Below, in pieces: positions 55 to 11,039 of a stretch of DNA of 64,000 nt. Position numbers and translations under genes: made by a program. Under the pieces are notes generated by a model. The model did not search any database. It had not been told where the DNA came from and was given only the letters and a program-made list of their open reading frames with translations. The stretch's first letter is position 1. Each line of letters starts with the position of its first letter. The DNA is from Thiohalomonas denitrificans. Lineage in GTDB: Bacteria; Pseudomonadota; Gammaproteobacteria; Thiohalomonadales; Thiohalomonadaceae. The stretch is from the NCBI RefSeq assembly GCF_016841685.1, contig NZ_JAENYR010000012.1, forward strand, positions 1 to 64,000, read 5' to 3'.

Positions 55-1737
55 ACGATCCTCGATGCGGATTCTGGTCACCGGTCGTCCCTTGAGGTGT
101 TTGCGGGGCCAGAGGGCGTAACGGCCGCTGGCGAGTGGCTCTCGGCGCCGTTTGTTGATCACCCTGGCTGCACTCTTCCCAATGGTGTAGACCGGCCTGC
201 GTCTGTGGCGGCCGTCGATATCGACGGCTTGCCAGGTAATGGCCGCGTGCACCACGGCGGGCGCCTGCTTGCCGGGCAGGGCGAACTGGCCATAGTCCCA
301 GGCAAAGAGCTGTTTCAGGACGGGGTCCTCGCTGGCGTGCGGCTCAAGGAGGGTGGCTACCGCATTGAACATCCGGTGGGGAGGCGGGCGGTGAGCCAAG
401 TCCGGGGCGACTTCCAGCAGGGCATCCAGCAGTCGGCTGATAGCGTTATCGAAGCGGGCGGGTACCCACCAGGCGAGCGTGTGACGCAGCAGGCCCGAAT
501 TCCATAGTCGTTCAATCAGTTCCGCATACCTTTTGAAGCGACTCAGTGCGTTCGCGCAGAGGTTTCGATGGCTGTGGACCTCATAGGGCGGGTTCGGATC
601 AAAGTGGTATTCGTATTGCGGTGCCTGGCCGCGCAGGGTGGTGCCGGGCAGCAGCTTGAGGGTGCCCAGCTGCAGGTGATCGGCTCCCAAACTGAACACC
701 CTGTCCATCGAGGCGCGGCACTGCTCCGCATCCTCATCCGGCAGGCCGACGATCAGGTCCAGGTGTACCGGGTGGCGGTTCATGGCTACCAGTTGGCGGA
801 TGTTTTCAACGCCTTTGGAGACATCCATGCGCCGCTCGATCCGGTCGAGAACCGCATTGTCCAGCGTCTGCAGCCCGATCTCGAACTGGAATTTCCCCGG
901 CGGCGCCGATTCGAACAGCGCCATGGCCTCGGGTGTGACCCGATCCGGATTGAGTTCCAGGTGGAAGCGCAGCGAGTCGGGGGTGTCGAGAAACCGCTTG
1001 AGCAGCCGAAGAGTCCGTTTGGCCCCCAGATGAAAGCTGCGGTCCAGCAGCTTGACCGTCTTGTGCTCGAGACGGCCGAGCACCTCCAGTTCGGCCTCGA
1101 TGCGGCTGTCGGGCAGGATGCGAAGCCGATCGCCGGCACTGGTGCAGAAACTGCAGTAGAACGGACAGCCCCGCGAGGTCTCCCAATAAATCAGTGGTTT
1201 GTCCGCATCCAGTAGCCCTTCGGTATAGGGCGAGATCAGCTCTTGCGGGGGTACCGGAAGAATGGGATTGCGGCGAGTCAGCCCGTGATCGCGCCATACC
1301 AGCCCGGAAACGGTATCCAGTCGCCCTTCGTTGCGTAGCAGGACCCGCGCGAGATCCCGGAAGGCGAATTCCCCCTCCCCCTCAACGACGAAATCCACGG
1401 CCGGCCGGGCTGCTATCAGCTCCTCCCCACGCGGGCCCGCTTCGGGTCCACCGAAGACGATGGTGGTCTGCGGGGAACGGGCCTTGAGTGCTTCGGCCAC
1501 CGCAAGGCAGAGATCGATGTTCCACAGGTAGGTGGAAAAACCCGCCAGCCGGGGGGGCGATGCAGCAATTTGGCGGATGAGCTGGTTCAGGTCGGTTTTG
1601 ATGGTGGTCTCGAACAGCCGAATATCCGGGTAAAAGGGTTCGTCCCGACAGCAGGCGGCGATGGAGCGCAGGGCAAGAGACGAGTGGTGAAACCCGGCGT
1701 GAAGGGTGATCAGTGCAATTGGCGGATTGGCGCTCAT
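43..1737 (-). CDS. B12-binding-domain radical SAM protein (DUF4080-like)
   Basis: 564 residues. The N-terminal ~150 residues look like a cobalamin-binding Rossmann fold (FGGPEAG, VVEGEGE). A radical SAM core follows with the cluster motif C191-PFY-C195-SF-C198 and an elongator-type barrel (LDLIVGLPDED). The C-terminal part resembles DUF4080. Members of this class use a [4Fe-4S] cluster and SAM, often with B12, for methylation or rearrangement; the substrate here is unknown. The gene stands alone. Its last codons (VRE, stop) lie in the end of a dispersed repeat, so the original C-terminus may have been altered by the insertion. The family call is firm, the specific function is not. Confidence 0.85.
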   Translation of the reverse strand: MSANPPIALITLHAGFHHSSLALRSIAACCRDEPFYPDIRLFETTIKTDLNQLIRQIAASPPRLAGFSTYLWNIDLCLAVAEALKARSPQTTIVFGGPEAGPRGEELIAARPAVDFVVEGEGEFAFRDLARVLLRNEGRLDTVSGLVWRDHGLTRRNPILPVPPQELISPYTEGLLDADKPLIYWETSRGCPFYCSFCTSAGDRLRILPDSRIEAELEVLGRLEHKTVKLLDRSFHLGAKRTLRLLKRFLDTPDSLRFHLELNPDRVTPEAMALFESAPPGKFQFEIGLQTLDNAVLDRIERRMDVSKGVENIRQLVAMNRHPVHLDLIVGLPDEDAEQCRASMDRVFSLGADHLQLGTLKLLPGTTLRGQAPQYEYHFDPNPPYEVHSHRNLCANALSRFKRYAELIERLWNSGLLRHTLAWWVPARFDNAISRLLDALLEVAPDLAHRPPPHRMFNAVATLLEPHASEDPVLKQLFAWDYGQFALPGKQAPAVVHAAITWQAVDIDGRHRRRPVYTIGKSAARVINKRRREPLASGRYALWPRKHLKGRPVTRIRIEDRVRE

Positions 1738-2675: not shown

Positions 2676-3077
2676 ATCGGGTCTCGCCCGCGGCAGCCTG
2701 TCGGACTCAGAAACGACCTGCTCGGCGGGAGCCGGTTGACCTTTGCATCATTCGGGAACCTTGGCAGGACTAACGGGTCTCTATACGTAACTGGCCGATA
2801 CGGTCGGGAAAGAAGTTAGCATGTAGCAGAGTCTGTTTTGGTAATGTGTTGAGCGTTGATTGATGTCATTTGAATTCAACCTGACGGGGCGAAAAAAATT
2901 GACACAACGACTGGCGAACCAAACAAACTGGGCGTATGCTTAGTTGTGTGTGCAGTCTCCTTCCTGTAGTCGTAGTCGGTAGTCACTCCTGAACATTCAG
3001 TTGAAACTCCCGCATCGTTCTTCCAGGGGTGGCCGCACGCAGTAAAAAGTATTGTCAGTTTCAAGAGGTGGATTACC
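2676..3077 (+). promoter_or_regulatory. Intergenic region with probable long 5' leader of the cold-shock gene
   Basis: This 402-base stretch has no supported ORF on the plus strand and is more A+T-rich than its surroundings after about 2740. A TTGACA box lies at 2899-2904, but no good -10 box sits at the usual distance. A long untranslated leader upstream of a CspA-type gene is typical of cold-inducible members, where leader structure controls translation. That reading is by analogy; no specific fold was computed. Confidence 0.4.
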
Positions 3078-3281
3078 GTGATTACAGGAACGGTCAAGTG
3101 GTTCAATGAAAGTAAGGGCTTCGGTTTCATTACTCCGGAGGACGGCGGCAAAGATGTGTTTGTACACTTCTCCGCTATCCAGGGGGCGGGTTTCCGAACC
3201 CTGAACGAAGGCCAGAGGGTCACCTTCGAGGTGCAGGACACCCCGAAAGGTCCGGCCGCGGCCAACGTGAACGCGGCCTGA
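3078..3281 (+). CDS. CspA-family cold-shock protein
   Basis: 67 residues, one complete cold-shock domain. The nucleic-acid-binding motifs KGFGFI (RNP1) and VFVHF (RNP2) are both intact. Such proteins bind single-stranded RNA or DNA and act as RNA chaperones. The start is GTG at 3078, preceded by AAGAGGTG at a suitable distance; no ATG is available. The gene is monocistronic, with a strong terminator immediately downstream. Which Csp paralogue it is cannot be decided from sequence. Confidence 0.95.
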
Positions 3282-3298
3282 GCCACGACACGGACCCG

Positions 3299-3326
3299 AA
3301 AAAGGCCCCGCTTGCGGGGCCTTTTT
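3299..3326 (+). terminator. Rho-independent terminator of the cold-shock gene
   Basis: Perfect 12-bp stem, AAAAAGGCCCCG at 3299-3310 pairing with CGGGGCCTTTTT at 3315-3326 around a CTTG tetraloop, ending in a T-rich tail. It lies 18 bases after the stop codon. The symmetrical A/T flanks could also stop transcription from the convergent small gene. Confidence 0.9.
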
Positions 3327-3350
3327 CTTTGGGGAACCGATCGGAGGACT

Positions 3351-3922: not shown

Positions 3923-4240
3923 ATGGCACAACCCGAATCCCTTGACGAAGTCCGCGCCGGGCTCACTGCCGAGACCGCCAGGATTAGATGGACCGAGCTG
4001 GGGCGCCATTTTGCCCGTGGGGTAGTAATCCGGGTTGATGTGGAACTCGACCTGGTAGAGGTCGCCGCCTGTATGGTCAGGGACGAAAAGGAGGCCCTGG
4101 AAAAATGGCTCGCCAGTGGTCGGGTGGCCCACCCATCGGAGGCGGAGGCCGCGGGCTGGTACGAACGTAGCGCCGAGTTTTGGGCGGTGGTCACCGCCCC
4201 CTGGGTGATCGTCCAGGAGATCCCGCCTTCAGAAGATTGA
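3923..4240 (+). CDS. DUF2288 domain protein
   Basis: 105 residues. The order of conserved pieces (LTAETARIRW, LGRHFARGVV, VDVELDLVEVAA, WAVVTAPWVIVQE) is characteristic of DUF2288, small cytoplasmic proteins of unknown function found in gammaproteobacteria and cyanobacteria. The ATG at 3923 is chosen because the family starts at this point; an ORF open from 3692 adds an unconserved N-terminal piece. The dGTPase gene follows after 92 bases. Confidence 0.85.
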   Translation: MAQPESLDEVRAGLTAETARIRWTELGRHFARGVVIRVDVELDLVEVAACMVRDEKEALEKWLASGRVAHPSEAEAAGWYERSAEFWAVVTAPWVIVQEIPPSED

Positions 4241-4332
4241 CCGCTGAGTGCACAGAGGAGGCGAGAGCCCCCTGTTCTCCGTGGCGATCATCGCAAGTCG
4301 AACCCCCTCTGAAGCGATATGGATACTGCGCT

Positions 4333-5685
4333 ATGAACAACTGCGAACAGTGGCTCCGCCTTCTCTCCAACCGACGTCTGGGGGATGCCCGCCCCGCTGA
4401 GCCCGGGCGCATCCGTACCGACTTTCAGGTCGACCACGACCGCATCGTCTTTTCGTCGGCCTTTCGGCGTCTGCAGGACAAGACGCAGGTGTTTCCATTG
4501 GCGGACAGCGACTATGTCCGCACCCGCCTGACGCACTCCATCGAGGTCTCCTGTATCGGCCGCAGCCTCGGCACGCAGGTGGGTGAGGTGATAACTGCCA
4601 AATACGGGATGGAGAGGGTTCAACCGGCTGATTTTGGCGCCATCGTGGCCGCTGCCTGTCTGGCCCATGACATTGGCAATCCACCGTTCGGTCACTCCGG
4701 CGAAGATGCTATCCGTCACTGGTTTGAACAGGAGCCGCCGGGGCAGGTGCTGCTGGAGTCGTTGAGCGAGCAGCAGCGTACCGACCTGTTGCGGTTCGAG
4801 GGCAATGCCCAGGGTTTCCGGATCCTGACCCGCCTGCAGAGCCCCGACAATCCGGGCCTGCGGCTTACCCATGCGGTACTGGCGGCGTTTACCAAATACC
4901 CGTGCCGCTCCGGGCTTGAGTCTCGCCAGGATGGAATCAGCGGCAAAAAGCACGGCTTCTTTCATGCCGAGGAGCCGTTCTTCGTCGAAGTCGCCGAAGC
5001 CACCGGGCTGCGGGCGCGGCTCCCGGGCGCTGCCTGGCATCGGCATCCGCTCGCCTTCCTCGTGGAGGCTGCCGATGACATCAGCTATCACATCATCGAT
5101 TTCGAGGACGGCTTCCGGCAGGGCTGTATCGATTACAACACCGCCATCGATCATCTCTCGGCCCTCGTCGATCGGGATCTGAGTGAACGCCTGAGCGGTA
5201 TCGCGGAGCCGAAGCGGCGGGTCGAATACCTGCGTGCCGCCGGTATCGGTAGCCTGGTCAATGCCACCGCCCGGGCCTTCCTGGACCAGGAGGAGGCCAT
5301 TCTCAGTGGTGAATTCGATGGGGAACTGGTCGGTGAGATCCCCCAGGCCGATGCGCTGGAGTCGATTAAACGGTTCGCCATCAGCCACATCTACACTGCA
5401 AGACCGGTGGTCGAGATCGAGGCCGCCGGCTTTGAGGTACTGGGCGGGCTGCTCGATATCTTCGCCGGTGCCGCCCACGAGGTGGCGACCCGCCAGAAAG
5501 CGTCGCGCCGTGCGCAAAAGCTGCTGGAACTGGTTCCGGCCCAATTCCTGGGTGAAGGGGGCCTGCCTGCCGCCGACCCTTATCAGCGCCTGCTCGGCAT
5601 TACCGACTTTATTGCCGGCATGACCGACACCTACGCCGTGGCGACCTTCAAAAAGGTGCGGGGGATTTCGCTGCCGCACGCTTGA
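4333..5685 (+). CDS. dgt: dGTP triphosphohydrolase (dGTPase family)
   Basis: 450 residues. HD-superfamily phosphohydrolase with the metal-binding H112-D113 in AHDIGNPPFGHSGE, preceded by the family motifs RLQDKTQVFPL and RTRLTHSIEVS. Members hydrolyse dGTP, and sometimes other dNTPs, to the nucleoside and triphosphate, and so trim the dNTP pool. The ATG at 4333 puts the first conserved segment (NNCEQWLRLLSNRRLGD) at the N-terminus; the reading frame is open from 4180 but the extra residues are unconserved. Length suits the family. Substrate range cannot be read from sequence. Confidence 0.92.
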   Translation: MNNCEQWLRLLSNRRLGDARPAEPGRIRTDFQVDHDRIVFSSAFRRLQDKTQVFPLADSDYVRTRLTHSIEVSCIGRSLGTQVGEVITAKYGMERVQPADFGAIVAAACLAHDIGNPPFGHSGEDAIRHWFEQEPPGQVLLESLSEQQRTDLLRFEGNAQGFRILTRLQSPDNPGLRLTHAVLAAFTKYPCRSGLESRQDGISGKKHGFFHAEEPFFVEVAEATGLRARLPGAAWHRHPLAFLVEAADDISYHIIDFEDGFRQGCIDYNTAIDHLSALVDRDLSERLSGIAEPKRRVEYLRAAGIGSLVNATARAFLDQEEAILSGEFDGELVGEIPQADALESIKRFAISHIYTARPVVEIEAAGFEVLGGLLDIFAGAAHEVATRQKASRRAQKLLELVPAQFLGEGGLPAADPYQRLLGITDFIAGMTDTYAVATFKKVRGISLPHA

Positions 5686-7016: not shown

Positions 7017-7994
7017 GTGACGCTATCTCCTGACATCGATATCCCTGACGGCTGGTGTCAATCGGCGCGGCGGATTGCGCGCGAGGGCTTCCGTCGCGTG
7101 CTGGTGCTTGGGGCGTCGGGTCGGGGAAAAAGTACCTATTGCAGTTGGTTGTGTGCGGCCCTGAAAGGGCGAAGGGTTGCTTTCGTCGATGCCGACATCG
7201 GCCAGAAAGACGTCGGGCCGCCGGCCAGCGTCACGCTGGCTTATCCACAACCCGGGCAGCCCCTGGCGGACGGCAGGCCCGCGGCCCTGTACTTCATCGG
7301 CGCGGTGAATCCGATGGGACACTTTCTTCCCCTTGTCACCGGGACTCGCGATTTGGCAGAGCGTGCCGAGGCCGACGTGGTGATCATCGATACCACCGGC
7401 CTCGTGCAGGGCCCCGGACGGGCCCTCAAGGATCAGCTTATCGATGCGGTGCGCCCCGACCTATTAATCGCCTTGCAGCGGGAAGATGAACTGGAGCCTC
7501 TGCTACAGGGCAATCGCCATTTGCCGGTGCTTCGCCTTACGGTCTCCCCGGAGGCACGGTCCAGGTCCGATAGTGCGCGCCGGCGGGCGCGGGAGGAGCG
7601 TTTTCGCGTGTATTTCGCTGCTGCGGAAAGCATCACCCTCGACCTCGAAGAGACGGTCTTGAGAGAAACGCCGCTTTTTGCCGGTCGGTGGGAGTCGATC
7701 CCCGGGGCTCTCTGGGCGGAGCGGACGGCTGAAGGGCTGGTGGCGGTGGCGCCCCCGGGGGTGGTGCTACCCCGTAAGTCCCGGCGCCTGAACCCCGGCT
7801 TCGAAGTCGATCGTCTGTGCGGGCTGGGCGACTACCGGGACGATACGGTGGGGCTGGGGATCGTCGAGGCCATCGATTTCGAAAGGCAGTCGGTCCGCAT
7901 CCGGACCCCGGCGGCACAAGCCGGCATCCGAACCCTGCGGTTGGGGGAGCTGCTGGTTCGTCCCGACGGTAGGCACCAGCGCGTGCCCCTGTGA
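7017..7994 (+). CDS. Clp1/Grc3-type polynucleotide 5'-hydroxyl kinase homologue
   Basis: 325 residues. P-loop GASGRGKST at residues 32-40, followed by the signature DADIGQKDVGPPA near residue 60, which is the hallmark of the Clp1/NOL9/Grc3 kinases, then a Walker B-like stretch VVIIDTTGLVQGPGR. Eukaryotic and archaeal members phosphorylate the 5'-OH ends of RNA in tRNA splicing and rRNA processing. The C-terminal third (LVRPDGRHQRVPL at the end) is plausibly the small beta domain of this family. The start used is GTG at 7017 with a weak ribosome site; later starts would enter the domain. It stands alone between noncoding DNA and xthA, with no RNA ligase nearby. Kinase activity in bacteria of this lineage is an inference. 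Confidence 0.8.
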   Translation: MTLSPDIDIPDGWCQSARRIAREGFRRVLVLGASGRGKSTYCSWLCAALKGRRVAFVDADIGQKDVGPPASVTLAYPQPGQPLADGRPAALYFIGAVNPMGHFLPLVTGTRDLAERAEADVVIIDTTGLVQGPGRALKDQLIDAVRPDLLIALQREDELEPLLQGNRHLPVLRLTVSPEARSRSDSARRRAREERFRVYFAAAESITLDLEETVLRETPLFAGRWESIPGALWAERTAEGLVAVAPPGVVLPRKSRRLNPGFEVDRLCGLGDYRDDTVGLGIVEAIDFERQSVRIRTPAAQAGIRTLRLGELLVRPDGRHQRVPL

Positions 7995-8120: not shown

Positions 8121-8900
8121 TCAGACTCGGAATTCGGCGACTACCGGGGCGTGATCGGAGGGGCGCTCGAGGCGCCGCGGTTTGGTATCGATGCCGCTGG
8201 CGGTACAGCGTTCGGTCAGAGCGGGACTGGCCAGGATGTGGTCGATACGCAGCCCCCGGTTACGGCGGAAGGCGCCCATGCGGTAATCCCACCAGCTGAA
8301 GCTTCCCTCCTCCTGCTGGAACAGCCGGAAGGTATCGGCAAGGCCCAGTTCGAGGAGTCCCCTGAATGCCGCCCGCTCCGGTTCCGAGAACAGCACGCGG
8401 CCCTTCCACAATTCGGGGTCGTATACGTCCCGCGGCTCCGGTGCGATATTGAAGTCGCCCACCACCAGGACGTTTTCCCGGCGCTGCAACTCCTCCTTTA
8501 GCCAGGCCGTGGCGTGTTCCAGCCAATCGAGCTTGTAGGTGTACTTGTCGGAATCGACACGCTGACCGTTCGGTACATACAGATTGATGACCCGTAAGGC
8601 ACCATAGTTGGCGGCGAGCACCCGCCGGGCGGGGTCGTCGAAGCCCGGCAGGTCGCGGATGACGTCATTCACGTCACCCTCGGCGGCCTCGCGGCTGAGA
8701 ATCGCAACGCCGTTGTAGGTCTTCTGGCCGGAGACGAGGGTGTGGTATCCCGCTGTACGTAGCGCGTCGACGGGGCACTCGTCATCCATCATCTTGATCT
8801 CCTGGAGGGCCAGGAAATCGGGCTGGTGCCGTTCCAGCCAGTCGAGCACATGCGGTAGCCGCACGCGCAGCGAATTGACATTCCAGGTAGCGATTTTCAT
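8121..8900 (-). CDS. xthA: Exodeoxyribonuclease III
   Basis: 259 residues. Endonuclease/exonuclease/phosphatase fold with the ordered motifs KIATWNVNSLR, LALQEIKM (metal-binding Glu), INLYVPNG, VVGDFNIAP, RIDHILAS and the terminal SDHAPV (catalytic Asp-His). It is an abasic-site endonuclease and 3'-5' exonuclease of base-excision repair. The ATG at 8900 gives the family N-terminus; the longer reading from 8978 adds 26 unrelated residues. The prlC stop codon lies about 96 bases upstream on the same strand. Confidence 0.95.
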   Translation of the reverse strand: MKIATWNVNSLRVRLPHVLDWLERHQPDFLALQEIKMMDDECPVDALRTAGYHTLVSGQKTYNGVAILSREAAEGDVNDVIRDLPGFDDPARRVLAANYGALRVINLYVPNGQRVDSDKYTYKLDWLEHATAWLKEELQRRENVLVVGDFNIAPEPRDVYDPELWKGRVLFSEPERAAFRGLLELGLADTFRLFQQEEGSFSWWDYRMGAFRRNRGLRIDHILASPALTERCTASGIDTKPRRLERPSDHAPVVAEFRV

Positions 8901-8996
8901 CGGTGGTTCACGGAGGGCACGGAGTGCCTTGTAAGTCGAATCATCTGAGTGCGTTTCTCTGTGCGTTTGGTGGTTCAAGGCAGCGACAATGAATCA

Positions 8997-11039
8997 TCAA
9001 GCGGCGATTCCGCTATGGCGCAGCAAGGCGTCGATCTGTGGTTTGCGTCCGCGGAATTCCACGAAAAGGTCCATCGGGTCACGGGCGCCCCCCTGCTCCA
9101 GAATGGCTTCCAGAAACGCCGCTCCGGTCTCCCGGTTGAAGATCCCTTCCTCTTCGAACCGGGAGAAGGCGTCTGCCGAAAGCACTTCGGCCCACTTGTA
9201 GCTGTAGTAACCGGCGGCATAACCTCCGGAAAAGATATGTGCAAAACCGTGCTGGAAGCGATTGTATTCGGGTGGGTGGACGACGGCCACCTCGGTCCTG
9301 ACATCGTCGAGCACCTCCTGGATGCGCCCGCCCTCCCCGGGGTCGTATTCCAGATGCAGGCGGAAGTCGAACAGACTGAATTCCAGTTGCCGCACCATGA
9401 ACATACCGACGTTGAAGTTGCGCGCGGCCTTCAGCTTATCGAACAGCGCCTCCGGCAGCGGTTCCCCGGTGCGGTAATGGGCGGCGAACAGGTCTATCGC
9501 CTCCCGCTCCCAACACCAGTTTTCCATAAACTGGCTGGGCAGTTCCACCGCGTCCCAGGGCACGCCGTTGATGCCGGAGACATCGGCGTAATCCACCCGC
9601 GTGAGCATGTGGTGCAGTCCGTGGCCGAATTCGTGGAACAGGGTGGTGACCTCGTCATGGGTGAGCAGTGCGGGGTCCTCGCCCACCGGCGGTGCGAAAT
9701 TGCAGGTGAGATAGGCGACGGGGTTCTGGATGGTAGCGTCCTCGAGCCGGCGCCGGCTGATGCACTCGTCCATCCAGGCGCCGCCGCGTTTGTGGGGTCG
9801 GGCATAGAGATCCAGATAGAAGCCGCCGCGCGGTTGATCCTCGTTGTCCCTTATCTCGTAAAAGCGCACATCCTCATGCCAGACCGGTACCCCTTTCACC
9901 TCCCGGATATCGATGCCGTAGAGGCGTTTCACCACTGAAAACATGCCGGGTACCACGCGCTCGGCGGGGAAGTAGGGCTTCAGCTCCTCCTGTGAGAAGT
10001 CGTAGCGTACCTGCCGCAGTTTCTCGGCGTAGTAACCGATATCCCAGGCCTGGAGCGACTCGAGTCCATCGCGTTCGCGGGCGAAGGTGGTGAGTTCGTC
10101 CAGTTCGTGGCGGGCCAGGGCAACGGAACGGCTGGCCAGATCACGGAGAAAATTCACCACCTGCCGGGGTGATTCGGCCATCTTGGTGGCCAGGGAACGT
10201 TCGGCATAGTTGGCAAAGCCGAGTAGTTCCGCCTGCTCGTGGCGCAGACGCAGGATCTCCTCCATGATCTCGCTGTTGTCCCACTGGCCGGCCCGGGGGC
10301 CGCGATCCGAGGCGCGGGTGCTGAATGCCTGGTAGACCTCCTCCCGTAGTGGACGGTCGTCGGCGTGGGTCATGACGGCGAAATAGGAGGGGAACTCCAG
10401 GGTGACCAGCCAGCCTTCCAGCCCCTCGCGCTCGGCATACTGGCGCAGTAGCCCTTTGGCCGATTCGGGGAGTCCCGCCAGCCGCTCTTCATCGGTCAGG
10501 GATTTCTGCCAGCCGTGGGTGGCGTCCAGCAGATTTTCATCAAAGCGCGAGGTCAGCAGCGAAAGCTTCTGGCTGATGGCCTTGAAACGCTCCTGCTTGT
10601 CTCCCGGCAGGTCGATACCGGTAAGGCGGAAGTCTCGCAGGGCATCATCGATGACCTTGCGCTGCGCGGTGTCCAGCTGCTGGAATTCCGGACCTTCGGC
10701 AATCGCCGTGAAGGCACGGAATAGCCTTGCATTCTGGCCGAGTTCGGTATGATAGGCGCTGATCTTGCTGCGGCAGTTATTGTAGGCCTCCCGCAAGGGA
10801 TCCGAATTGACCACCGCGTTCATGTGGCTGATGGGCGAAAATACCCGCTCCAGGCGGTCCTCCATCGCCTCGAGCGGCGCGACCAGATTGTTCCAGCCGT
10901 AGGGGCCGCCGGAAGAGAGCAGGGACTCGAGGGTGGCGCGGTTTTCGGCCAGAACCGTATCGACAGCGGGTTCGGCGTGTTCGGGACGGATGTCCTGAAA
11001 GGGCGGCAGACCGGTCATCTCCAGCAGCGGATTGGGCAT
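8997..11039 (-). CDS. prlC: Oligopeptidase A (M3 metallopeptidase)
   Basis: 680 residues, full length for the family. The zinc site HEFGH is at residues 469-473 within FHEFGHGLHHMLT, followed by the downstream GVPWDAVELPSQFMENW block, as in oligopeptidase A. It is a cytosolic zinc endopeptidase that degrades short peptides, including cleaved signal peptides. The N-terminus MPNPLLEMTGLPPF is typical. A ribosome site (GAGGAGTACC) precedes the ATG. Confidence 0.96.
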   Translation of the reverse strand: MPNPLLEMTGLPPFQDIRPEHAEPAVDTVLAENRATLESLLSSGGPYGWNNLVAPLEAMEDRLERVFSPISHMNAVVNSDPLREAYNNCRSKISAYHTELGQNARLFRAFTAIAEGPEFQQLDTAQRKVIDDALRDFRLTGIDLPGDKQERFKAISQKLSLLTSRFDENLLDATHGWQKSLTDEERLAGLPESAKGLLRQYAEREGLEGWLVTLEFPSYFAVMTHADDRPLREEVYQAFSTRASDRGPRAGQWDNSEIMEEILRLRHEQAELLGFANYAERSLATKMAESPRQVVNFLRDLASRSVALARHELDELTTFARERDGLESLQAWDIGYYAEKLRQVRYDFSQEELKPYFPAERVVPGMFSVVKRLYGIDIREVKGVPVWHEDVRFYEIRDNEDQPRGGFYLDLYARPHKRGGAWMDECISRRRLEDATIQNPVAYLTCNFAPPVGEDPALLTHDEVTTLFHEFGHGLHHMLTRVDYADVSGINGVPWDAVELPSQFMENWCWEREAIDLFAAHYRTGEPLPEALFDKLKAARNFNVGMFMVRQLEFSLFDFRLHLEYDPGEGGRIQEVLDDVRTEVAVVHPPEYNRFQHGFAHIFSGGYAAGYYSYKWAEVLSADAFSRFEEEGIFNRETGAAFLEAILEQGGARDPMDLFVEFRGRKPQIDALLRHSGIAA

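Follow-up and report, generated by a model that had tools for sequence, protein, structure and literature searches.

A Clp1-family protein encoded by Thiohalomonas denitrificans, a probable polynucleotide 5'-hydroxyl kinase, and a candidate RNase Z-like partner

As polynucleotide 5'-hydroxyl kinases, Clp1 proteins are not new to bacteria, since Saito et al. (2019, PMC6777427) reported Clp1 from 14 of 1,543 complete genomes of bacteria and proved the activity of the Thermus scotoductus protein (Ts-Clp1). Ts-Clp1 phosphorylates single-stranded RNA, with a Km for ATP of 2.5 uM, and at high enzyme also single-stranded DNA, RNA being preferred (PMC6777427). The sections consulted of PMC6777427 and PMC10598085 give no physiological role in bacteria. 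Here we describe a clp1-like gene of the gammaproteobacterium Thiohalomonas denitrificans, carried on the 64,000 nucleotides of contig NZ_JAENYR010000012.1 that were analysed (the window). The original prediction, made from the letters of the window, had called its product a homologue of the Clp1/Grc3 RNA 5'-OH kinases, a family best known from eukaryotes and archaea; that description is fair, but bacterial members had already been published, one of them with demonstrated kinase activity (PMC6777427).

The window protein resembles each of the described systems in part. It shares with Ts-Clp1 a patchy distribution in bacteria, and differs from it in having the arginines of the lid as well as a C-terminal domain of archaeal type; Ts-Clp1, compared by its description in PMC6777427, lacks an N- or C-terminal domain and has a less well conserved lid. 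Archaeal Clp1 proteins (of Thermococcus and its phylum) consist, like the window protein, of a P-loop kinase domain and a homologous C-terminal region; the Thermococcus protein is 31-33% identical to it and belongs to a separate clade. Human and C. elegans CLP1 and Grc3/NOL9 are alike in fold over nearly its whole length (Z 18-28), with aligned motif residues, but the eukaryotic N-terminal domain of CLP1 is missing from the window protein, and we know of no TSEN, CPF or Las1 partner for it. We put the probability at roughly 0.8 that its product is an active polynucleotide 5'-hydroxyl kinase of the Clp1 family, most likely one that acts in RNA end processing.

Family membership, fold and catalytic residues

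Sequence, fold and phylogeny place the window protein among the bacterial members of the Clp1/Grc3 family (CLP1_P, COG1341), in agreement with the original prediction. CLP1_P is by far its best Pfam family (121.8 bits against a cut-off of 26.6, E=3.8e-35, profile positions 1-187 of 188). No NCBIfam cut-off was passed by it or by the two relatives scanned. Its sequence matches the solved structures of human CLP1 (E=2e-9), worm CLP1 (2.5e-5) and NOL9 (0.002). An AlphaFold2 (AF2) model built from 12 sequences has a mean pLDDT of 90.2, and all 23 of its Foldseek matches with E<0.001 are chains of Clp1, Grc3-containing rRNA-processing or LAS1L-NOL9 entries, so that neither Pfam nor Foldseek points to an unrelated P-loop family. 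In VIA-align the model matched human CLP1 at Z 28.1 (274 residues, 2.7 A) and worm Clp1 with bound single-stranded RNA and AMP-PNP at Z 27.9, whereas no row from outside the family exceeded 12.3; the shared fold spans the kinase and C-terminal domains, covering model residues 1-316.

The two motifs on which the prediction was founded, GASGRGKST and DADIGQKDVGPP, are both present as it quoted them, and the Lys/Asp/Arg set is present in the alignments (Table 1). Across 15 aligned proteins 24 columns are invariant, including K38, D60, T126, R188 and R192; of these, K38, D60, R188 and R192 each align with an identical residue of worm Clp1, and we take those four to be its catalytic residues, the Asp presumably being the catalytic base. 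The window protein has all four motif patterns (Walker A, Walker B, clasp and lid), as do the archaeal proteins in 11 of 11 rows. Among 30 other bacterial Clp1 proteins, both Walker patterns are found in 30, the lid in 27 and the clasp in 8.

The post-lid residues are homologous to the C-termini of 12 archaeal proteins (hhalign probability 99.1%, E 5e-18). Bacterial Clp1 has been said to be without a C-terminal domain (Saito et al., PMC6777427), which is untrue for the branch of the window protein. At the other end, the P-loop strand begins at residue 27 of 325, and a Pfam search at E up to 1 matched no other Clp1 domain ahead of it, leaving no sign of the eukaryotic N-terminal domain.

Table 1. 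Coordinates of the clp1-like gene and of its motifs and domains in the window
Feature	Position	Strand	Details and basis
clp1-like gene	7017..7994	+	GTG start, 325 aa; putative Clp1-family polynucleotide 5'-hydroxyl kinase; open reading frame, CLP1_P 121.8 bits, AF2 model pLDDT 90.2, Z 28.1 to human CLP1
Walker A GASGRGKS (GASGRGKST, residues 32-40)	7110..7133	+	residues 32-39, Lys38; motif scan; G32, G37 and K38 invariant in 15-row alignment
Walker B DADIGQ (DADIGQKDVGPP from residue 58)	7188..7205	+	residues 58-63; motif scan, alignments; Asp60 aligns with C. elegans Clp1 Asp
Clasp motif DTTGLVQGPG	7389..7418	+	residues 125-134; alignments, motif scan
Lid motif RRRAREERFRVYF	7578..7616	+	residues 188-200; motif scan, alignments; Arg188 and Arg192 invariant in 15-row alignment
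C-terminal beta-rich domain, homologous to archaeal Clp1 C-terminal region	7626..7973	+	hhalign 99.1%, AF2 secondary structure, structural alignment to residue 316

Fold, motifs and family membership were computed here, and from characterised relatives we infer the chemistry: ATP-Mg would be held in the P-loop, Asp60 would activate the 5'-OH of an RNA end, and the gamma-phosphate would be moved under lid arginines 188 and 192 to yield RNA with a 5'-phosphate. Several observations weigh against an active kinase of RNA ends. The clasp pattern that we used occurs in only the 8 of 30 bacterial proteins given above, and the clasp of the window protein reads TTGL, its Leu taking the place of a Trp in human and worm CLP1; kinase activity is absent from certain Clp1 proteins, that of yeast for example (PMC6777427); and beside clp1 no RNA-processing gene was found among nine open reading frames (ORFs) scanned with Pfam, eight of which were identified. 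The protein might be imagined as an ATP-binding regulator or scaffold of Clp1 fold, as yeast Clp1 is in mRNA 3'-end formation. Kinase-dead family members do exist (PMC6777427, PMC10598085), inactivity having been tied to changes in the motifs, above all in the clasp (PMC10598085), and a related branch, in which a Clp1-like domain is fused to an RNase Z-like protein (see below), fails the DxDxGQ and clasp patterns in 15 of 15 cases and may have lost its activity. With all four patterns in place in the window protein and the invariant columns including K38, D60, T126, R188 and R192, we regard a protein without kinase activity as improbable and retain the kinase as the better explanation.

Distribution and phylogeny

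Clp1 matches are common in the phylum of Thermococcus (100 of 115 genomes at 1e-15), less so in Thermodesulfobacteriota (36/247), and present in 4 of 398 genomes of the window's own phylum, where the best five or fewer candidates per genome were scored; the only full-length match there is that of the window's genome, the other three being partial and lying in frames of 649-808 aa. A sample of the class (369 genomes, with up to the best eight candidates scored in each) contained 25 that passed the CLP1_P cut-off. Five, with frames of 316-494 aa, scored above 100 bits; thirteen had the match in frames of 657-1,060 aa; and seven, which were set aside by eye, had short partial P-loop matches in frames of 91-253 aa.

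Phylogenetic analysis was based on 64 rows of prokaryotic relatives, with no eukaryotic rows, and rooted on five fusion rows. Beforehand, 27 loci out of 100 had been dropped as duplicates, as close relatives, as a fragment or as further fusion rows (the window's own row being restored), together with 10 of the 15 listed fusion rows. The window protein falls in a mostly proteobacterial clade of nine gamma-, beta- and Syntrophobacteraceae proteins (support 99/95), whose sister is Thermodesulfobacteria (97/81), followed by Hydrothermarchaeota (98/95), while the proteins of the Thermococci phylum form a separate clade (97/100) away from it. The question of archaeal or bacterial grouping, raised with the original prediction, is thereby answered in favour of the bacterial members, with one archaeal lineage (Hydrothermarchaeota) close by. 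The patchy distribution fits horizontal transfer or repeated loss.

A mobile-element origin was considered and rejected: no relative was found in 72,556 plasmid records or 50,697 phage records, a peptide-pattern search of IMG/VR returned 18 stretches that matched a pattern, none of them encoding a relative, and PHROGs gave weak matches only (best 0.0032). An anti-phage role was likewise rejected: PADLOC matched the kinase only weakly, to mad8 (0.0037), and did not match the RNase Z-like protein described below.

Genes common to the surroundings of clp1 were found, among the matches listed, only within lineages (the same genus, three Hydrothermarchaeota, Thermodesulfobacteria, and the f122 group), with the exception of the clp1/RNase Z-like pair of genome G190. 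In three Hydrothermarchaeota loci a conserved gene of about 375-400 aa, presumably resembling an ADP-dependent sugar kinase, lies directly 3' of clp1 (L036:5998-8044, L037:5956-8084, L040:3548-5591).

RNase Z-like proteins as candidate partners

In the thirteen class genomes with the long frames, the Clp1-like domain is joined to a protein related to PRK02126 ('ribonuclease Z', NF002558): in 13 of 13 the contig also carries an NF002558 match, in a frame of equal size, the best five or fewer candidates per genome having been scored. In each of the five fusion proteins that were scanned (L009, L010, L011, L016 and L023), CLP1_P lies close to the N-terminus, and the C-terminus is formed by a metallo-beta-lactamase domain. 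On NF002558 the fusions reach 260-290 bits, below its cut-off of 315, and the two compared with NCBIfam matched PRK02126 at 275-288 bits. Their kinase-like domain is homologous to that of the window protein (hhalign 99.8%, E 3e-28), from which they differ in the attached RNase Z-type domain and in forming a long branch, separated in the tree at 100/100. The activity of this domain may be altered, as the DxDxGQ and clasp patterns are unmet throughout, and the linker that follows it has a weak likeness to the C-terminal domain of the window protein (25%) and none to the archaeal one (0.2%).

Stand-alone genes of the same RNase Z-like type occur as well. In G190 (L046) a true clp1 (8153-9091, +) is followed about 130 bp downstream by such a gene (about 9219-10226, +), or 80 bp if measured to the longest frame, with long ORFs of the opposite strand on both sides of the pair. 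On a betaproteobacterial contig they share a strand at a distance of 9,066 bp. The genome of the window has its own copy on another contig (C105:27072-28067, NF002558 421.5 bits); among solved structures its best match is human ELAC1 (4e-14). Three genomes encode, next to the RNase Z-like gene, a small protein whose motif resembles PIxxNWYxHxDKGxxF (at L120:7239-7547, beside a fused gene, and at L169:9053-9583 and L170:11326-11649, beside stand-alone ones), and a further copy (L172:1818-2234, genome G302) stands about 7 kb from such a gene; in the same genome about 8 kb separate the RNase Z-like ORF at 9577-10692 (+) from an ORF at 449-1477 (+) that we take to be RNA 3'-phosphate cyclase-like.

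The two genes also co-occur, if imperfectly. A stand-alone RNase Z-like gene was found in 4 of the 5 class genomes with stand-alone Clp1, versus 14 to 17 of the remaining 364 (Fisher p 2e-5 to 4e-5, with no correction for relatedness: the test takes genomes as independent though G140, G254 and G350 belong to one genus, and it scores the 13 fusion genomes as being without a stand-alone RNase Z-like gene). Both genes are present in both genomes of the window's genus, and neither was matched in any of 18 family members from other genera (4 of the 18 less than 90% complete); in family f27, both occur in G190 and neither in G045. The NF002558 cut-off is passed in 6 of 8 Clp1-positive proteobacterial genomes; at E 0.001 the profile reports a general metallo-beta-lactamase likeness (33/33 genomes and 13/14 controls match, and 6/33 pass the cut-off).

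These observations raise the possibility, which we consider less likely than not, that the window kinase does the 5'-healing in a two-part RNA end-processing module, with the RNase Z-like metallo-beta-lactamase protein as its other half; it draws on the fusions (13/369), the close same-strand pair in G190, the 9,066-bp arrangement, the shared presence in the window's genus, the lack of a match to either in the 18 family members of other genera, and the Fisher test. Several points speak against it. RNase Z leaves 5'-phosphate ends, and therefore would not be the source of the kinase's substrate. The RNase Z-like gene is present without a CLP1_P match over the cut-off in 17 of 369 class genomes and is under the cut-off in two of the eight Clp1-positive proteobacterial genomes (Nitrosospira and G350, the latter 82% complete), facts that also tell against the kinase reading in its wider form. 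In the window's own genome kinase and RNase Z-like gene are not on one contig. Finally, the fused kinase-like domain lacks key motifs, and the likeness of its linker is weak.

The more general proposal, that proteobacterial Clp1-type kinases and PRK02126-type RNase Z-like phosphodiesterases constitute such a module, whether as fusion, gene pair or separate genes, and a bacterial equivalent of the nuclease-kinase assemblies of eukaryotes (Las1-Grc3, TSEN-CLP1), is tentative and slightly less probable again. In it the RNase Z-like part would trim or open 3' ends, and Clp1 would phosphorylate 5'-OH ends. Going by the title of a 2020 report by Yip and co-workers, ELAC1 reportedly has a 3'-end role on cleaved tRNAs, and a role of that kind would fit the RNase Z-like protein better than making the 5'-OH substrate. 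A loose parallel is found in eukaryotes, where Las1, the partner of Grc3, is sometimes fused to a metallo-beta-lactamase domain (PMC3710099). No report of a link between Clp1 and RNase Z was found in the one open library searched. The RNase Z-like protein of contig C105 is the best lead to a partner, the partnership itself being hypothetical; with relatives in which such a protein is fused to or beside a Clp1-type domain, the window's genome offers a concrete candidate partner for bacterial Clp1, which, if true, would tie 5'-OH RNA phosphorylation in bacteria to tRNA or RNA 3'-end processing.

Genomic setting and probable role

The ORF lies exactly where it had been predicted, at the position and length given in Table 1, and is the only clp1 copy in the 3.79-Mb genome. 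A genome of the same genus (G001) has a copy that is 85% identical and flanked by the same neighbours, with a dN/dS of about 0.18 between the two, and we conclude from this that the gene is real and under purifying selection. A Pfam scan of nine ORFs between 43 and 14997 gave a match in eight, among them an FKBP isomerase, an M3 peptidase, an APH-type kinase and a GGDEF protein; ORF 4180-5685 had no Pfam match at 1e-8. As the original prediction had noted, no RNA ligase, phosphatase or tRNA-splicing gene stands beside clp1, in so far as no RNA-repair gene is among these eight identified ORFs (smaller ORFs were not scanned); nor was a ligase or healing-phosphatase gene in the same operon found among them.

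The neighbour that adjoins clp1, on the opposite strand and divergent from it, belongs to the exonuclease/endonuclease/phosphatase family (exonuclease III-like). Together with the phosphorylation of single-stranded DNA by high amounts of the Thermus enzyme (PMC6777427), it could suggest a nucleic-acid kinase that in the cell acts on the 5'-OH ends of DNA. Its opposite orientation, the restriction of its counterpart to the same-genus locus (blastp of the ORFs of 16 clp1 loci, among the matches listed) and the preference of Thermus Clp1 for RNA (PMC6777427) make this very improbable, and RNA ends are preferred here as the substrate.

The genome encodes, on other contigs, RtcB (494.8 bits, profile 1-362 of 426) and RtcA (238.7 bits). 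The RNA ligase family PF09414, which is matched in 7 of 14 Clp1 genomes, was not found in this genome or in G001 (the search did not extend to further ligase families, PF09511 for one), and repair by kinase and 5'-phosphate-dependent RNA ligase is unsupported here for that reason. RNA end processing or repair, rather than tRNA splicing, is the most likely role in this bacterium: a 5'-phosphate might put a 5'-OH fragment beyond the reach of the RtcB ligase and so commit it to maturation or decay.

Elsewhere in the window, a cspA thermoregulator RNA element (Rfam RF01766, 105.5 bits) is located at 2939-3328 (+).
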